The notes under the pieces are model-generated. The model did not search any database. It saw only the letters and a program-made list of their open reading frames with translations, and had not been told where the DNA came from. From NCBI RefSeq assembly GCF_006704265.1, contig NZ_VIKA01000002.1, positions 1-64,000 of the forward strand: a stretch of 64,000 nucleotides of DNA, in the 5' to 3' direction. The stretch comes from Elioraea sp. Yellowstone. Lineage in GTDB: Bacteria; Pseudomonadota; Alphaproteobacteria; Acetobacterales; Acetobacteraceae. Below are positions 52,675 through 64,000 of this stretch, piece by piece (position 1 is the first letter of the stretch; each line of letters starts with the position of its first letter). A program made the position numbers and the translations under genes.

Positions 52675-53259
52675 TCAGGCCGCGTCGATCACATCATGAT
52701 CCGCGCCGCGCGCGGCCGCGAGCTCCTGCATCACGGCGAGCGCACGTTGGAACGAGGCGCCCTCGAACTCCCGCTCGCCCTTGCCGCCAGGGCCGTAGCG
52801 ACCGCCGGGAATGCGGAGCGTGATCAATTGCGAGGGAAGCTCTGCCTTCGCAAAGTAGCCGATGAGCCTCCGGTCCAACGCGACCAACGCATAGATGTCG
52901 AACTCATCATGGCGATACACGCGCGCTGCACCACGACCCGCCCGCCTGACGTTGAAAAAGTACGCGGGATTGGCGCGCATGCTCGGCTGAGGATGCCGCG
53001 GGTGAAGCGTCGCCTTCACCTGAACGCGGATCACGCGATCGCCGATATCGACGGCCAGATCGTAGGCCATGCCTTGAGCGGTGGGAAACGCTCGCCAGCC
53101 GCCGAGCAAGAGATCAGCGCAGACGAGATGCTCTGCAGCACGTCCAAGCTCAAGTTCATGGCTGACCTGCCGCACGGAGCCGGCGTGCTGTGGAACCCGC
53201 GGCGGCACCGCGAGCGGGAGTGCGCTCTGATCGAACAAGAGACCGAGCTCGCGCGTCAC
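52675..53259 (-). CDS. PD-(D/E)XK-like nuclease coupled to a DNA methyltransferase
   Basis: A 194-residue protein starting at GTG 53259, overlapping the methyltransferase stop (GTGA). HELELGRAAEHLVCADLLLG and AYDLAVDIGDRVIRVQVKAT resemble the D...Q-x-K variant of PD-(D/E)XK enzymes seen in group I intron homing endonucleases of the I-Ssp6803I type. It may be a homing or restriction-like nuclease paired with the methylases, or a phage DNA-processing enzyme. I could not confirm the family by search. Confidence 0.65.
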   Translation of the reverse strand: MTRELGLLFDQSALPLAVPPRVPQHAGSVRQVSHELELGRAAEHLVCADLLLGGWRAFPTAQGMAYDLAVDIGDRVIRVQVKATLHPRHPQPSMRANPAYFFNVRRAGRGAARVYRHDEFDIYALVALDRRLIGYFAKAELPSQLITLRIPGGRYGPGGKGEREFEGASFQRALAVMQELAAARGADHDVIDAA

Positions 53260-54527
53260 GCGGCCACATCCCGCCGACGCACCGTCGCGATGTCTTCGAA
53301 TGTGCGGTCTTCCCCCGCCAGCACGGCAGCCTCGCCCGTGGCCTCCTGCCAGCGCTGCACCGCGACGTCGCAGTAGCCGGGGTCGATGTCCATCGCGAAG
53401 CAGGTCCGCCCGATCGTCTCGGCAGCGATGATGGTGCTGCCGCTGCCACAGAACGGCTCGTACACCGCGTCCCCAGGCCGGCTGTTGTTCAGCATCGGCC
53501 GGCGCATGCACTCGACCGGCTTCTGCGTGCCGTGCACGGTGGCGAGATCCTCGGCGCCGTTGCCGATCGACCACAGCGTGGTCTGGTCGCGCGCGCCCTG
53601 CCAGTGACCGGTCGCGCCCTTGCGCACCGCGTAGAGGCACGGCTCATGCTGCCAATGGTAGTCGCCGCGACCGAGCACCAGCCGCGGCTTGGCCCAGACG
53701 ATCTGGCTGCGCACTGCGAAGCCGGCCGCCTCGAGGCTCTCGATCACGGTGCGCGCGTGCACGCCCGCGTGCCACACATACGCAACGTCGCCGGGGAACA
53801 GCGCCCAGGCCTCACGCCAGTCGGCGCGGTGGTCGTTGGCGACACGGCCGGTGCGCAGCGTCGCCGAAACGCCCGCCTCGTTGCGCCAGGACGGGTTGTA
53901 GTCCACCCCGTAGGGCGGGTCCGTGACCATCAGGTGCGGCTGCACGCCGACCAGCAGGCGGTCGACGTCGGCGGGATTGGTGGCGTCGCCGCAGAGCAGT
54001 CGATGCCGCCCGAGCAACCAGAGATCGCCGGGACGCGTCACCGGCTCGGTCGGCGGCTCGGGCGCCGGCGCATCGAGGTCGTTCTGCGCGAGGTCGTTGC
54101 CGATCCCGGCGTCCAGGCTGGCGAGCAGCCGGTCGAGCTCCATGCCGGAGAAGCCGAGCACGTCGAGATCGACCGCCGCCTCGTCGCGGATGCGCGCGAT
54201 CTCGGCGGCGAGCAGGGCCTCGTCCCAGCCGGAGTTGAGCGCGATCTGGTTGTCGGCGAGGCGGAGCGCGCGCGCCTGCGCGGGCGAGAGGTGGCCGAGC
54301 CGCAGCGCCGGCACGGTGGCGAGGCCAAGCCGGCGTGCCGCCATCACCCGGCCATGGCCGGCGATCAGCACGCCCTCGGCATCGACCAGCACCGGATTGA
54401 CGAAGCCGAACTCGGCGATCGAGGCGGCGATCTGCGCCACCTGCGCCGCCGAATGCGTGCGCGCGTTCTCGGCGTAGGGCAGCACCCGGTCGAGCGGGAT
54501 GCTCTCGACCTGGAGGCTAGGCCGCAT
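53256..54527 (-). CDS. ParB-domain DNA adenine/cytosine-N methyltransferase 2
   Basis: A 423-residue fusion. Residues 1-100 are a ParB/sulfiredoxin-type domain (SIAEFGFVNPVLVDAEGVLI and AGHGRVMAARRLGLATVP). Then comes a beta-class amino-methyltransferase with the catalytic motif DPPYG and the SAM motif FCGSGST near the C-terminus. It could methylate adenine N6 or cytosine N4; specificity is unknown. It overlaps its paralogue upstream by 11 bases and the nuclease downstream. Confidence 0.85.
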   Translation of the reverse strand: MRPSLQVESIPLDRVLPYAENARTHSAAQVAQIAASIAEFGFVNPVLVDAEGVLIAGHGRVMAARRLGLATVPALRLGHLSPAQARALRLADNQIALNSGWDEALLAAEIARIRDEAAVDLDVLGFSGMELDRLLASLDAGIGNDLAQNDLDAPAPEPPTEPVTRPGDLWLLGRHRLLCGDATNPADVDRLLVGVQPHLMVTDPPYGVDYNPSWRNEAGVSATLRTGRVANDHRADWREAWALFPGDVAYVWHAGVHARTVIESLEAAGFAVRSQIVWAKPRLVLGRGDYHWQHEPCLYAVRKGATGHWQGARDQTTLWSIGNGAEDLATVHGTQKPVECMRRPMLNNSRPGDAVYEPFCGSGSTIIAAETIGRTCFAMDIDPGYCDVAVQRWQEATGEAAVLAGEDRTFEDIATVRRRDVAA

Positions 54528-55983
54528 CGGCGAGGGTCTCGGCGCGCTCAGCCGCCACGGCGTCGTACTCGCGGCCGTCGCCCGCGAGCGTGACCGGCAG
54601 ATCGGGATGCAGCATGCGCCAGCGCGCGATCGCGAGATCGACGTACTCGGGCGCGAGCTCGATCGCGCGCACGCGACGCCCGGTGCGCTGCCCGGCCAGG
54701 ACCGTCGTGCCCGAGCCGGCGAACGGCTCGAACACCACCTCGCCCGCGTCGGTGTAGGCGCGCATCAGGAACTCCGGCAGCGCGACCGGGAACACCGCAG
54801 GGTGCTCGGTCTCGATCCCCCGCGCCTTGTGCCGGGTGATCCGCAGCACGCTGTCGGGGACGCGGAACGGCTGGATCGGCCGCCCCTCATGGGTGCAGCC
54901 GCTCATCGTCCCGTCGGCCCGCCGCAGCCCGGTCATGTGCAGCGGATCGCCCGCCCACTTGCAGGGCACGATCTTGTTCGCCTGCCGCGCCGTGCGGTTG
55001 AGGTGGAACACCAGCTCGAAGGCCGGTGCGAGCCGGCCGTTCCAGTCGCCCGGCAGGCCCGGCCCCTGGTCCCAGGCGTAGAGCGCGAAGCGGCGCCAGC
55101 CCTGGGCGCGCATCCACTCGAGCCAGCCACGCCAGTACGGCACCCACTCGCCATCGCGATGGATCAGGCCGAGGTTCACCAGCACCTGGGCGTCATCCGC
55201 CATGGCGGTTGGCAGGTGGCGGAACACGCCCTGCATCAGGGCGTCCCAATCGGAGACCCCACCGATGGTGTACTCGCGCTGGCTGCCATAGGGCGGCGAG
55301 GTGAACAGCAGCGCTGCCCGGTCGTCGGCTATCACGCGCGCCACGCTCGCCGCGTCCGTGCTGTCGCCGCACAGCAGCCGATGCTCGCCGAGCAGCCAGA
55401 GATCGCCCGACCGCGTCACGGATTGACGTGGCGCCTCCGGCTCGGCGTCCGCCGGGTCGTCCTCCTCGGTCCCCGCTGCGCCGTCGTCACCCTCCCGGAC
55501 CGCGGGCGCCGACAGGGCCCCGGGCGCGTCGCCGTCGGTCACGGCCTCGCCAGCCGCCGCGAGGATGTCGTCGAGCTCCGCGGCCGAGAAGCCGAGCGCA
55601 GCGAGGTCGAGGTCCGGCGCCGCCTGCACTGCGGCCAGCGCCTCGCGCAGCAACGCCTGGTCCCAGGTCGCGTTCTCGGCGATGCGATTGTCCGCGAGCC
55701 GCAGCGCCTCCTTCTGCGCCGCCGAGAGATGCTTGAGCACGATCACCGGCACCCGCGCGATGCCGAGCGCGAGCGCCGCTTCGAGGCGGCCATGCCCCGC
55801 GATCAGCGTGCCGTGCTCGTCCACCAGCAGCGGGTTGGTGAAGCCGAAGGCCAGCATGCTGGCCTTGATCTGCTCGATCTGCGCCGCGCTGTGCACCCGC
55901 GCATTGCCGGGATGCGCGCGCAGTTCCGCCACCGGGCGCAGCACGATCTTCGCTGCCATCCAGGGGAGCTGCATCGGCACCAT
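54517..55983 (-). CDS. ParB-domain DNA adenine/cytosine-N methyltransferase 1
   Basis: A 488-residue fusion with the same architecture: a ParB-like domain (FGFTNPLLVDEHGTLIAGHG, RLADNRIAENATWDQALLRE), an acidic linker (about 155-190), TSPPYG as the catalytic motif and FAGSGTT for SAM. It is paralogous to the next gene but carries TSPPYG rather than DPPYG, so target base or site may differ. ATG 55983 or 55974 may start it. A cluster of TGCGAAC repeats lies directly upstream. Confidence 0.85.
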   Translation of the reverse strand: MVPMQLPWMAAKIVLRPVAELRAHPGNARVHSAAQIEQIKASMLAFGFTNPLLVDEHGTLIAGHGRLEAALALGIARVPVIVLKHLSAAQKEALRLADNRIAENATWDQALLREALAAVQAAPDLDLAALGFSAAELDDILAAAGEAVTDGDAPGALSAPAVREGDDGAAGTEEDDPADAEPEAPRQSVTRSGDLWLLGEHRLLCGDSTDAASVARVIADDRAALLFTSPPYGSQREYTIGGVSDWDALMQGVFRHLPTAMADDAQVLVNLGLIHRDGEWVPYWRGWLEWMRAQGWRRFALYAWDQGPGLPGDWNGRLAPAFELVFHLNRTARQANKIVPCKWAGDPLHMTGLRRADGTMSGCTHEGRPIQPFRVPDSVLRITRHKARGIETEHPAVFPVALPEFLMRAYTDAGEVVFEPFAGSGTTVLAGQRTGRRVRAIELAPEYVDLAIARWRMLHPDLPVTLAGDGREYDAVAAERAETLADAA

Positions 55984-59285: not shown

Positions 59286-61688
59286 TTATTCATCGCTGCC
59301 GGCCTCCTCCCCTGCCGGGTCCTGGGACGCCTGGACCAGCACATAGCGGGGGCCCGGCGGACGGCCGACCCCGGTGTAGGGCGGCGGTGCTGTCTCCATG
59401 ACCACCCCGTTCGTCACCAGCGCGTCGATCACCTCGCCGAACTCGCGTGCGGTCAGCTTCAGCCCCTTGTGGAACAGGTCGCGCCGGCTGCACGGGCCGT
59501 GCTTGCTGATGATGTTGATGGCCTTGTTCAGCCGCTTCTCGAACTCGCTGTCGGCGAGGAAGCGTTGCGCGTCGCGGAGCACGGTCCTGGTGCAGTGCTC
59601 GGCCAGCGCCCAGCCCCAGGACAGCTCCGCCTCGGTGATCGCTGGATGCGCGGGGTTGCGGCTGATGGCGCAGATCAGCGCGAGCTTGCTGGCGTTCTCG
59701 CCGAGCCGGTTGACGATGGCGGCTTGCGGCGTGCCGGCCACCTTCGTTGCCCAGGCGTCCTCCTCGGCCAGCTTGCGGTCGTGCAAGACCTCGGCCGCGG
59801 CGGTCATCGGCACGGTGTAGGGCGCGGGCTCCTCGGTCGCCGTCATCGGCGCCACATGCACGTCTGGCAGGTTGCCTCGCGGCAGCGCATCGCCGTGCCC
59901 GCGCGCGATCGCTTTCAGCGCTTCGAGCAGTTCCGCCGGCGGCGTGATGATCCCTGCATCGCGGTTCCGCTCCGGCCGATCGGTGTCGGTGACGAACACC
60001 AGGAAGCGTGCGAGGGAGCCGTCCATCATCGCGCCGCCCTCAAGCGCCTTCCAGAATGTCGAGGGAGTGGTGGTGCCGAAGAAGCAGACGCAGGGCTGGT
60101 GGATGTCGACGCGGGGCGCGTCCTTCTTGTTGGCGTACTCCGTGCCGCGATAGATGCCCTTCGCCCGGCTGTAGAGCTTCATCAGTTCGGACCAGATGTC
60201 CGCTTTGTGCGCCGGGGCCCTGCCGCCCGTGACGGTGCCGAGGAACAGGCCGAACTCGTCGATCTGGAACAGCCGCGCCGGATGCTGCTCCAGGGCGGAG
60301 AGCATGCCGCGCCCCGAGGCGAGGTTCTCGCCGCCGAGGTAGTGATCCAGCTTCGCCAGATCGAAGCAGCGGCGGATCACCTCCGGCGCATGGTCCTTCC
60401 CGCCGCCGCTCTCGGCGACGGCCGCGACGTAGACGTTGGTGCGGAGGTCCGTGCGGGTGCGATACTTCCGTCCGGCCAGTGCCCCGACGGCACAGATGGC
60501 CGCGCCGAGGGCGAGGAAGGGCTGCGGCCGCAGCGCGGTCCTGCAGCACTCGTCGACGAGCATCTGCAAGACGCCGCCGGGCTGCATGATGTTGGCCGGA
60601 ACGGGCAGCGGCTTGGCCTGCTGCTTGGCGCGGCTTGCGTACAGCGAGGACAGGAACGGTGCTGCGGGATGGATCGCGTTCTCGTGCGGCGTCAGCTCTG
60701 CCCTGGCGAGCAGCGCGGCCGCCGGATGCGGCTGCGCCATCTGGCTGGCCACGCTGCCGTTGAGGATCATCGCTGGCTCCGGCACCCAGCCACGATCGAT
60801 CGCGAGCTGGTAGATCGTGCCCGCACCGACGCTGTGGGGCCGGAAGCCGGCCCAGCGGCGTTCCGGTGTGTCGGCGCGGCCGGACTGGCCGGATTTGCGT
60901 GATTGGCGCGACCAGTCGAGCCAGAGCTCGCGCCCGTCCTCGCCGAGCGCTGCCTTGATGGCGTTGCCGATGGTGATCCATTCGTTGCCGGGCAGGTCAT
61001 GGTTCGGCAGCCAGGCCAGCGCCGCGGCGATCGCCTCGCGTGTGCCCTTGGGATCGCCCGGGCCATTGCAGGGCCGGCTCGCAGCGTCCTGGGGCAGCAG
61101 AGATGCCGTTCTGGCCTCGGCCGGCACGAGCGCGCTGGCGGCATCCAGGAAAGCGTGGCAGGCGGCTTCGTCCACCGCCGGCAGCCGATCGCGCGGCACG
61201 TCCAGCAGGCTCGCCTCCGGCCAGGCATAGGGCTGGCCGGTGTCGGGGTGGATGGCGTGGGCGACGAACTGCTGGCCGCGCGCCAGGAGCTCGATCGGGT
61301 GGCGCTTGCGGCCGGCAAACGCGCTCTCGGCGCGATAGACCAGCAGCCGCTTCGGCGCGCGGCCGATGCGCCAGCACGGCGTCTCGCCGAGCATGGTGGT
61401 GGCAAGAGTGGTGAGCTCGATCGCCAACGCGGCATCGAGGACGTCGATGTCGATGCCGACCACCGAACCGGTGGCGATGCCGATGCCGCAGCCAGGCCAG
61501 CGCGACCAGATCTCGATCTCGGCGCTGGTGGTCGCGCGGTCGCAGTGCCGGGCCCAGCCAGGATAGGGCTGCCACGCGCCGCCGCGGAACCGGCCGGGCA
61601 CCTTGCTCGCCGGCATGATCGGGATCACCGGATAGCCGTTGTCGGCGAGGCGCGCGCCGTGCTCGGCCATGAAGCAGCGATCGGTCAT
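59286..61688 (-). CDS. Primase-polymerase with PriCT-2 and DUF3987-like ATPase domain
   Basis: An 800-residue replication protein. The N-terminal prim-pol (AEP) domain includes DNGYPVIPIMPASKVPGRF and IGIATGSVVGIDIDVLDAAL with acidic metal ligands. A PriCT-2-like segment follows (LAWLPNHDLPGNEWITIGNA). The C-terminal ATPase of the DUF3987 type has GGGKDHAPE as a Walker-A-like loop and QIDEFG as a Walker B. ATG 61688 overlaps the DUF6511 stop. It should prime and help unwind phage DNA. Confidence 0.85.
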   Translation of the reverse strand: MTDRCFMAEHGARLADNGYPVIPIMPASKVPGRFRGGAWQPYPGWARHCDRATTSAEIEIWSRWPGCGIGIATGSVVGIDIDVLDAALAIELTTLATTMLGETPCWRIGRAPKRLLVYRAESAFAGRKRHPIELLARGQQFVAHAIHPDTGQPYAWPEASLLDVPRDRLPAVDEAACHAFLDAASALVPAEARTASLLPQDAASRPCNGPGDPKGTREAIAAALAWLPNHDLPGNEWITIGNAIKAALGEDGRELWLDWSRQSRKSGQSGRADTPERRWAGFRPHSVGAGTIYQLAIDRGWVPEPAMILNGSVASQMAQPHPAAALLARAELTPHENAIHPAAPFLSSLYASRAKQQAKPLPVPANIMQPGGVLQMLVDECCRTALRPQPFLALGAAICAVGALAGRKYRTRTDLRTNVYVAAVAESGGGKDHAPEVIRRCFDLAKLDHYLGGENLASGRGMLSALEQHPARLFQIDEFGLFLGTVTGGRAPAHKADIWSELMKLYSRAKGIYRGTEYANKKDAPRVDIHQPCVCFFGTTTPSTFWKALEGGAMMDGSLARFLVFVTDTDRPERNRDAGIITPPAELLEALKAIARGHGDALPRGNLPDVHVAPMTATEEPAPYTVPMTAAAEVLHDRKLAEEDAWATKVAGTPQAAIVNRLGENASKLALICAISRNPAHPAITEAELSWGWALAEHCTRTVLRDAQRFLADSEFEKRLNKAINIISKHGPCSRRDLFHKGLKLTAREFGEVIDALVTNGVVMETAPPPYTGVGRPPGPRYVLVQASQDPAGEEAGSDE

Positions 61689-62038
61689 GGCAGGGCCTGC
61701 CCCCTGTGAGGCAGAGCCAGATGCCGCCCCTGCTCCAGACGCCGCGCAAGCTCGTCCTGGTAGGCCGTGACGATCACCTCGAGCAGCGTCAGCCACTCCG
61801 CCTCGGTGAGCCGCGCGAGATCGGTCTTGCCGATGCTCTCCAGGTACTCGCCGGCCAGCGGGCTGGCGGCGGCGATCGCAGCGATCTCGTGCTCGTCGGG
61901 GTCAACCATGCCCCAGCTCCGGCAGAGCGCGTTCATGCAGCGCATGGAGCAGGCCGGCAGGATCGTGGAGGGCAGCACCAGCGGGTCGAACCAGCCGAAG
62001 CCGCGCGCGGTTCTGAGCCGACACGCGCTGCATCTCAC
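61685..62038 (-). CDS. DUF6511-like phage protein
   Basis: A 117-residue protein starting at GTG 62038, with RCSACRLRTARGFGWFDPL, CSMRCMNALCRSW and MVDPDEHEIAAIAAASPLAG. The Cys pairs form a zinc-ribbon-like module as in DUF6511 proteins next to phage helicases. Start and stop overlap the neighbours (GTGA and ATGA), so helicase, this protein and primase are translationally coupled. Confidence 0.7.
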   Translation of the reverse strand: MRCSACRLRTARGFGWFDPLVLPSTILPACSMRCMNALCRSWGMVDPDEHEIAAIAAASPLAGEYLESIGKTDLARLTEAEWLTLLEVIVTAYQDELARRLEQGRHLALPHRGQALP

Positions 62039-64000
62039 CCGAACCTCGCCGCGGTGATCTCGGTGTATTGCCCGGTGGGGCGCACCTGGATGGCGACGGG
62101 CTGGCGCAGGGCGTTCGACGCCGCGAGCGCCTCGTCGACCGAGCACGGGACGGGCAGGTGCGGTGCGCGCCTCCGCCACCAACCGACCGCCTTCTCGCGC
62201 GGATAGCCGGTGTGCTGGAGGCAGACCCATTCGCTGTGTCGTGCCAGCCCGCATTCGTAGGTGACGCGCAGCGAGGGCGGCCTGCCGGGCTTCTCGTGGC
62301 GGGCGTAGCTGACGCCGGTGACGTCGCACCACGCCGCCTGGATCTGCGTCGAGAGCAGCGCGTCCGCCGCCGCCCGCGGTGCCACCTTCACCACCGGTGG
62401 CGGGAACTCGTGATCGCACGCGATGCAGCGCCGCACGCTGGCATGGTTGATGGTCTGGCATTCCGGGCAGACCTTGATCGGTGCCTCGCCGTCGCCGGCC
62501 GGCTCCTTCTTCCGCCCGTCCACCATGTCGATGGGGCCGTGCCGCGACGTGTTGCCGGCGAAGTCGAGAACGAGGCAGTCGTCCTTGCCCTCGGCGAGGC
62601 GGGTGCCCCGGCCGACCATCTGCACGTAGAGCCCGACGCTCTTCGTCGGCCGCAGCAGCGCGATCAGGTCGGTGCCCGGCGCATCGAAGCCGGTGGTCAG
62701 CACGTTGGCGTTGGTGACGCAGCGCAACCGCCCGGCCTTGAAGGCCGCGAGGATGCCGTCACGCTCCGGCGCTGGCGTGTCGCCGGTGACGGCCTCGCAG
62801 GAGATGCCGTGCTCGCGGATCGCGTCCCGCACGTGCCGCGCATGCGCGACCCCGGAGCAGAACACCAGCCACGATCCGCGGCCCTCGCCGTGCTGCACGA
62901 TCTCGGCGACGGCGGCGCGCGTAACCTCGTCGCGGTCCACTGCCGCCTCGAGGTCCTTGGCGATGAACTCCCCGCCGCGCGTGCCCACACCCGCGACGTC
63001 GAGCTGGGTCTCGGTCTGCTTCGGCACCACGGGACAGAGATAGCCCTGCTGGATCATGTCCAGCACGGGCACCTCGTAGGCGATGTCGGTGAACAAGCGA
63101 TCCTTGCCCTCATGCAGCAGGCCGCTGTCGAGCCGATACGGCGTGGCGGTGAAGCCGACGACCTTCAGCAGCCCGGCATTGATCTCGTTCAGCTGCGCGA
63201 GGAACGAGCGGTACATGCCGCTGTCGCTGCGTCCGAGCAGGTGCGCCTCGTCGATCAGCACCAGGTCGCAGCGCTGCACCTTGTAGGCGTGACGGTGGAT
63301 CGACTGGATGCCGGCGAACAGGATCTGCGCGTGGATGTCGCGGCGGGACAGGCCGGCCGAGTAGATGCCGGCCGGCGCCTCAGGCCAGGCGCGAATGAGG
63401 GCCTGGAAATTCTGGGAGATCAGTTCCCGCTGGTGGGTCAAGACCAGCACACGCGTATCGGCGTAGGCCGCGATCGCCTCGCGGATGAAGCCGGCGATGA
63501 CGACGCTCTTGCCGGTGTTATGGTGAACCGTGAAATCCGCGGTCAGGTAGAGATGATCGCCATCGAGGCTGAAGCCGAAGAAGTCATCCTCCGGCAGTGG
63601 CCGTAGATCGAATCCGGTGACCAGCGGGTTCTTCTTCTGGCGTCGCGGCGCAGCGCGTTTCCGTGCGACGCGGGTCGGGATCATGTCCGTGTCGCCGCTT
63701 ATGGTGACGCGCCAGTAGGTGCCGCCGGATCCATTCTGATCGAACTTGCGACATGGCTGGCATGATGCGGCCAGTCCAAGACTGCGCGCGACGAACGTCA
63801 CATCGCGGGCCAGCCTCTCCGACTTGCTGATGAAGTCGAAGCCGGTCCCGCCGAACAGATGCCCATCGGTGTCGAGAAGCCCCGCGAGGACACCGAGCCG
63901 GACATCCCTGCTGCCCAGCTTGTAGATGTCAGGGATGAACTTCTCGGCTGCGTTACGACCGGAGACGCCAAGCTGCCGCAGGATCGCAGTCACCCTGTTG
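62035..64000 (-). CDS. DEAH-box SF2 helicase interrupted by an intein, 5-prime end beyond window
   Basis: The frame is open to base 64000, so the true start is outside. The helicase half (62035-63516) begins TGKSVVIAGF, the end of a P-loop. It then shows DLVLIDEAHLL (DEAH), GFTATPYR, and QMVGRGTRL (motif VI), with a Cys zinc-finger-like CPECQTINHASVRRCIACDH later. Upstream of TGKS the protein is an intein (63517 onward): it ends ADFTVHHN, and the LAGLIDADG-type motif LAGLLDTDG lies at 63862-63888. Splicing would join the out-of-window N-extein to Thr-Gly-Lys-Ser and restore the ATP site. The helicase probably acts in phage replication. Confidence 0.88.
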   Translation of the reverse strand, partial: NRVTAILRQLGVSGRNAAEKFIPDIYKLGSRDVRLGVLAGLLDTDGHLFGGTGFDFISKSERLARDVTFVARSLGLAASCQPCRKFDQNGSGGTYWRVTISGDTDMIPTRVARKRAAPRRQKKNPLVTGFDLRPLPEDDFFGFSLDGDHLYLTADFTVHHNTGKSVVIAGFIREAIAAYADTRVLVLTHQRELISQNFQALIRAWPEAPAGIYSAGLSRRDIHAQILFAGIQSIHRHAYKVQRCDLVLIDEAHLLGRSDSGMYRSFLAQLNEINAGLLKVVGFTATPYRLDSGLLHEGKDRLFTDIAYEVPVLDMIQQGYLCPVVPKQTETQLDVAGVGTRGGEFIAKDLEAAVDRDEVTRAAVAEIVQHGEGRGSWLVFCSGVAHARHVRDAIREHGISCEAVTGDTPAPERDGILAAFKAGRLRCVTNANVLTTGFDAPGTDLIALLRPTKSVGLYVQMVGRGTRLAEGKDDCLVLDFAGNTSRHGPIDMVDGRKKEPAGDGEAPIKVCPECQTINHASVRRCIACDHEFPPPVVKVAPRAAADALLSTQIQAAWCDVTGVSYARHEKPGRPPSLRVTYECGLARHSEWVCLQHTGYPREKAVGWWRRRAPHLPVPCSVDEALAASNALRQPVAIQVRPTGQYTEITAARFG
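63517..64000 (-). other. Intein (C-terminal part, with LAGLIDADG homing-endonuclease domain)
   Basis: The last residue is Asn encoded at 63517-63519, in the C-terminal HHN splice motif, followed by the +1 Thr of the extein P-loop (TGKS). EDDFFGFSLDGDHLYLTADF just before it is the usual block F region. SRDVRLGVLAGLLDTDGHL is probably the second LAGLIDADG motif, and the first, with the N-terminal splice block, lies beyond the edge. It is the only intein I see in the window. Confidence 0.9.

Follow-up and report, generated by a model that had tools for sequence, protein, structure and literature searches.

A predicted PI-SceI-type intein in the Walker A loop of a prophage DEAH-box helicase, with marks of recent homing among its relatives

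Results

The helicase gene and its prophage setting

The window, the 64,000-nucleotide stretch of DNA analysed here (G000:C222:1-64000), ends within a helicase gene, and its minus strand reads from 62035 to 64000 as a single open frame, ...LAGLLDTDG...DHLYLTADFTVHHN^TGKS...LIDEAH... (here and below the caret marks an insertion point). Because the contig, of 94,909 bases in total, runs past the edge of the window, the missing part of the gene could be read there. The start codon of the frame is an ATG at contig position 64671, which overlaps the stop codon of an upstream Cas4-like exonuclease gene, and the complete open reading frame (contig C222 62035-64671, minus strand) encodes 878 amino acids: an N-extein of 34 residues, MSLSLRPYQRAAIDALYDYFGGNTGNPLVVMPTG, an intein of 351 residues, and a C-extein of 493 residues that opens TGKSVVIAGF... 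Of the 1053 intein bases, 484 fall within the window, as does the entire C-extein; in the comparisons with relatives, the window's own copy is locus L005 (contig 60000-79000). The features within the window are as follows.

59286 to 61667, minus strand: phage DNA primase of the same replication module (PHROG 3022, 2.6e-72)
62035 to 63516, minus strand: helicase C-extein, 493 amino acids plus stop (ResIII 9.9e-16, Helicase_C 6.7e-14; PHROG 16 DNA helicase, 5.8e-87)
63241 to 63252, minus strand: DEAH box, motif II (sequence reading; Pfam ResIII/DEAD)
63505 to 63516, minus strand: TGKS, the second half of Walker A, its Thr the predicted +1 splicing nucleophile (sequence and intein-free homologues)
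63517 to 64000, minus strand: C-terminal part of the intein, the remainder lying beyond the window (boundary exact from intein-free homologues)
63517 to 63525, minus strand: HHN, the intein C-terminus, block G (sequence; alignment of relatives)
63862 to 63888, minus strand: second LAGLIDADG motif, LAGLLDTDG, block E, with predicted catalytic Asp235 (aligned to PI-SceI Asp326; invariant in 15 relatives)

The exteins match the Pfam families ResIII and Helicase_C, and the C-extein carries in order the TGKS of Walker A, the DEAH motif II, the Helicase_C domain, and a C-terminal zinc-ribbon-like stretch. By these domains the host protein is an SF2 DEAH helicase of RadD-like type; it is classed as RadD-like rather than as RadD because the score against the RadD (YejH) equivalog NCBIfam NF053632, 272 bits for a query consisting of the C-extein and the in-window part of the intein, falls below the 720-bit cut-off. 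Its gene belongs to a tailed-prophage replication module, with neighbours encoding a Sak4-like annealing protein, a DUF669 SSB, the Cas4-like exonuclease, the primase, a RuvC-like resolvase, and ParB-methyltransferases; further prophage genes encode a terminase, portal, head protease, major head protein, minor tail protein, tape measure, and tail fibre. The first-pass annotation of this DNA had proposed that an intein splits the P-loop of a prophage DEAH-box helicase whose N-terminal part lies beyond the window, and both proposals are borne out by the full reading frame, its Pfam domains, and the phage genes around it. The identical 878-residue protein is encoded in a 45-kb IMG/VR viral record, and a literature search turned up nothing published on either the helicase or the prophage. 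Elsewhere in the prophage, two adjoining ParB-nuclease/DNA-methyltransferase fusion genes, both PHROG 498, occupy window positions 53256-55983.

Anatomy of the intein

The intein (contig 63517-64569) runs from C1 to N351 and separates PTG from TGKS of the Walker A loop. Both ends bear the features of a class 1 intein: Cys1, block A, and block B (N62-x-x-H65) at the N-terminus, and HHN^T, that is His-Asn followed by Thr+1, at the C-terminus. The N-terminal elements and the N-extein lie just past the window, where the earlier annotation had suggested that an extension to the right should be searched for them. It had also noted a LAGLIDADG domain upstream of HHN and TGKS, and the full sequence reveals two such motifs: LGALLGDG, with predicted catalytic aspartate D134, and the block E motif with D235. 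D134, like D235, is invariant in 15 relatives. Pfam detects Hom_end_hint (1.6e-19, from residue 1) and LAGLIDADG_3 (1.6e-7) in the intein, which contains seven cysteines, including Cys1 and a CxxC pair (C270, C273) that is retained in close relatives and missing from the more distant same-site relatives L102 and L103. The third-position GC content of the intein (79.5%) is below that of the helicase (92.5%).

Several comparisons relate this insert to PI-SceI. A phmmer search aligned the two at 5e-19, pairing D134 and D235 with D218 and D326, the catalytic residues of PI-SceI, and matching the HN ends. Block B of the intein reads N-x-x-H in place of the usual T-x-x-H, as it does in PI-SceI. An AlphaFold model of the intein (mean pLDDT 87.5, pTM 0.88) was submitted to Foldseek, and the eleven best PDB matches were PI-SceI structures (best E 7.9e-27, TMq 0.74-0.81), with Prp8 inteins ranked lower. 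On sequence and modelled fold, the insert is thus predicted to be a complete class 1 intein of PI-SceI type with a two-motif LAGLIDADG homing endonuclease.

Empty sites and insertion points

The comparison with intein-free homologues that the first-pass annotation had advised was made by a tblastn survey of the junction in 99 loci carrying the helicase, a count of loci rather than of independent phages, since some loci represent one contig entered twice. At the same codon, 69 of the 99 read through without an intein as PTG^TGKS or a close variant, 27 carry an intein, and 3 were left unassigned. The 69 uninterrupted loci make the boundaries of the intein exact, and the finding of 27 inteins at precisely the point where these loci are continuous argues that the insert is not there by chance. 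The DNA of empty sites also aligns with the flanks of the intein in the window.

Two of the three remaining loci, L046 (near 3663) and L078 (near 3998), are intein-free helicases that read PTA^GGKS instead of PTG^TGKS; the absence of Thr+1 and of some of the usual site could make them alleles that are naturally resistant to the intein. An intein-bearing helicase at L027:4001-4012 has a C-extein beginning TGMS, the Walker A lysine codon being ATG (Met), and represents either a sequencing error or a helicase that would be spliced and ATPase-dead. The intein occurs at 77% identity in a genome of the same family (G027), and matches in a scan of the genome collection came only from Crenalkalicoccus roseus (77%) and two Lentisphaeria/Victivallaceae MAGs; the G027 and C. 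roseus matches place the host near Acetobacteraceae/Roseomonadaceae. At L104 (G055:C1:303049-304026) an intein-like reading frame of 39% identity has no recognisable helicase directly around it. Two loci of the same genome were considered as further copies of the intein-bearing helicase and rejected. Contig C15 holds a 38%-identical, intein-free helicase, and C298:1-126 (L006:1-126) is a C-terminal fragment of a similar helicase at a contig end, 86% identical over 42 amino acids before unrelated sequence begins; this fragment is either a broken piece of a helicase or an assembly break at a repeat.

Relatives of the intein occupy two insertion points in the Walker A loop, three residues apart, each of which supplies Thr or Ser as the +1 nucleophile. 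The intein of the window shares the site G^[T/S]GK[S/T] with L109, L102/L103, L021, and E. coli phage PJ16. Most of the sampled phage relatives lie at the classic GK^T site, namely those of Klebsiella MEW1, Salmonella Ent1, Pantoea AH01, Pseudomonas Touem01, three Vibrio phages, E. coli Bas95, and L020, whereas the lineage of the window inserts three residues earlier. On a 106-kb viral contig, the relative at L020:3974-5035 interrupts PSGCGK^TTL of an ABC-type-like ATPase, and P-loops outside helicases may thus also be open to this lineage.

Mobility among relatives

On a quick tree of helicase C-exteins, the presence and absence of the intein requires 7 gains or losses, at least 4 of which are forced by well supported branches. 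In three pairs of relatives the inteins differ by 0.2-0.6% and the helicases by 7-10% of bases. L009 and L089 differ at 2 of 1053 intein bases versus 106 of 1435 downstream (Fisher p 1.7e-23), L009 and L013 at 6 of 1053 versus 98 downstream (p 1.7e-17), and L010 and L011 at 3 of 1053 versus 269 of 2814 (p 2.8e-34). Third codon positions show the same disparity between intein and helicase (2/351 vs 98/492 for L009/L089, 3/351 vs 87/492 for L009/L013, and 2/351 vs 94/492 for L010/L011), so that the near-identity of the inteins is not explained by purifying selection acting on the protein.

In L009/L089 and L009/L013 near-identity continues past the intein for about 105 bases on its upstream side, with one difference at -55 in L009/L013, and for 127-134 bases on its downstream side, before divergence returns; such edges would be expected after co-conversion at a homing break. 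For L010/L011 the corresponding limits are at most 28 bases upstream and at most 50 bases downstream. Within the same clade, pairs that lack the intein usually diverge more near the site (12.9%) than elsewhere (7.4%), with the exception of L086/L092. Near-identical inteins in diverged helicases thus appear to bear the mark of recent homing among these relatives, although ordinary phage recombination of short segments may account for individual pairs. For most scorable pairs, dN/dS in the endonuclease is about 0.05-0.26.

The intein of the window is identical to that of its nearest relative, L007, as is the flanking DNA (0 differences in 1.5 kb upstream). The pair L005/L007, which dS had suggested as a homing tract, was dropped as evidence since the identity continues through the upstream flank, and the transfer tracts described here are those between relatives of the window's own copy.

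Discussion

The insert is very probably a complete class 1, PI-SceI-type intein that splices out of the Walker A loop of the prophage helicase and homes into empty alleles. This reading is supported by the anatomy and boundaries of the insert, its conserved catalytic residues and fold similarity, its sporadic distribution, and the recent transfer tracts among its relatives; from these we infer splicing, DNA cutting by this copy, and inactivity of the precursor. The intein would be translated in frame with the helicase and fold as a HINT domain and an endonuclease. Splicing would proceed by an N-S shift at Cys1, transfer to Thr+1, and cyclisation of Asn351, and excision would rejoin PTGTGKS, restoring an active ATPase. 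During co-infection or superinfection the endonuclease would cut intein-free helicase alleles at the P-loop codons, and recombination would copy the intein into the cut allele. Because Walker A is split, and by analogy with P-loop RadA as cited in PMC6195587, the unspliced precursor can soundly be expected to lack ATP binding and ATPase activity.

The position of the insert within a nucleotide-binding loop also invites the proposal that it is a conditional switch, in which oxidation, metal, or temperature slows or blocks splicing and thereby holds the helicase and phage replication inactive. A P-loop helicase intein that splices conditionally, DnaBi1 of M. smegmatis, provides a precedent (PMC6195587), and the seven cysteines here include Cys1 and the CxxC pair kept in close relatives, an arguable candidate for such a sensor. 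The pair is absent, however, from L102 and L103 at the same site, and most close relatives are intein-free, which indicates that this type of phage does not need a switch. As homing explains the pattern and the data do not require coupling to splicing conditions, we regard a switch as decidedly improbable, and the link between phage replication and splicing conditions that the first-pass annotation had raised is not supported. It is likewise unlikely, if slightly less so, that the element is a relic, passively inherited with an inactive endonuclease, whether it still splices or the helicase has been lost. The endonuclease activity of this copy is a prediction, and the Met in place of the Walker lysine in L027 suggests that some copies may sit in damaged helicases; on the other hand, both catalytic aspartates are present and invariant, the frame has no stop, endonuclease dN/dS is low, and among relatives nearly the same intein is found in helicases that have diverged. 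A further alternative, that a free-standing homing endonuclease gene became fused to a helicase or was misassembled with one, is suggested solely by the draft state of the genome (358 contigs), and can be practically dismissed: the insert is in frame with codon-exact boundaries, the same arrangement recurs in 27 loci, including other samples and the independent 45-kb viral record, both the N and C parts of the HINT domain are present, and the recovered N-terminal half refutes it.

The simplest account of these observations is a selfish, splicing, and probably homing intein, and the recent homing tracts among relatives allow the insert to be explained as a selfish element without benefit to the phage. 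A broader proposal, that a single PI-SceI-like phage intein lineage colonised both G^[T/S]GK and GK^T, using the loop Thr or Ser as +1 at each, and that its G^[T/S]GK branch continues to home, with a possible redox response mediated by the conserved CxxC, is speculative and, taken as a whole, unlikely. Existing knowledge of inteins is unchanged by this example. Its value lies in a clean, intact, and probably mobile intein with natural empty sites, pairs of identical inteins in diverged exteins, and two insertion points in one loop, which make it well suited to studying how inteins home from phage to phage and to asking whether one lodged in a P-loop can ever serve as a switch.

Inteins in the P-loops of phage helicases have already been annotated, and the present one adds another of that kind. 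Recognisable relatives of some part of it occur in 407 phage records, and over at least 80% of its length in 226. Salmonella phage vB_SenS-Ent1 (Jerseyvirus) and Klebsiella phage MEW1 (Jedunavirus) carry inteins of the same family, with 39.6-43.5% identity over all 351 residues, likewise in the P-loop of a phage helicase; the Ent1 protein was deposited as a 'putative intein containing helicase precursor', and its intein is annotated with a LAGLIDADG homing endonuclease. Both are inserted at GK^T, in contrast to G^TGKS here. PI-SceI, the VMA1 intein of S. cerevisiae, shares the fold and layout (HINT domain and two-motif LAGLIDADG endonuclease, HN end, catalytic Asp pair) but is only about 22% identical, is about 100 residues longer (454 amino acids), uses Cys+1, and resides in a different host protein. 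The TerL1-a inteins of mycobacteriophages also lie in the Walker A loop of a phage protein, whose active site forms only on splicing; some have been shown to splice and to carry active homing endonucleases (Kelley et al. 2016, PMC5050341). They differ in their terminase host and in their insertion between Lys and Thr, and mycobacteriophage terminase inteins are only weakly similar in sequence to the intein described here. Finally, the redox-responsive DnaBi1 (PMC6195587) has in common with it the P-loop position in a helicase, but is a mini-intein without an endonuclease that follows a class 3 mechanism and whose +1 residue is the Mg-coordinating Ser.
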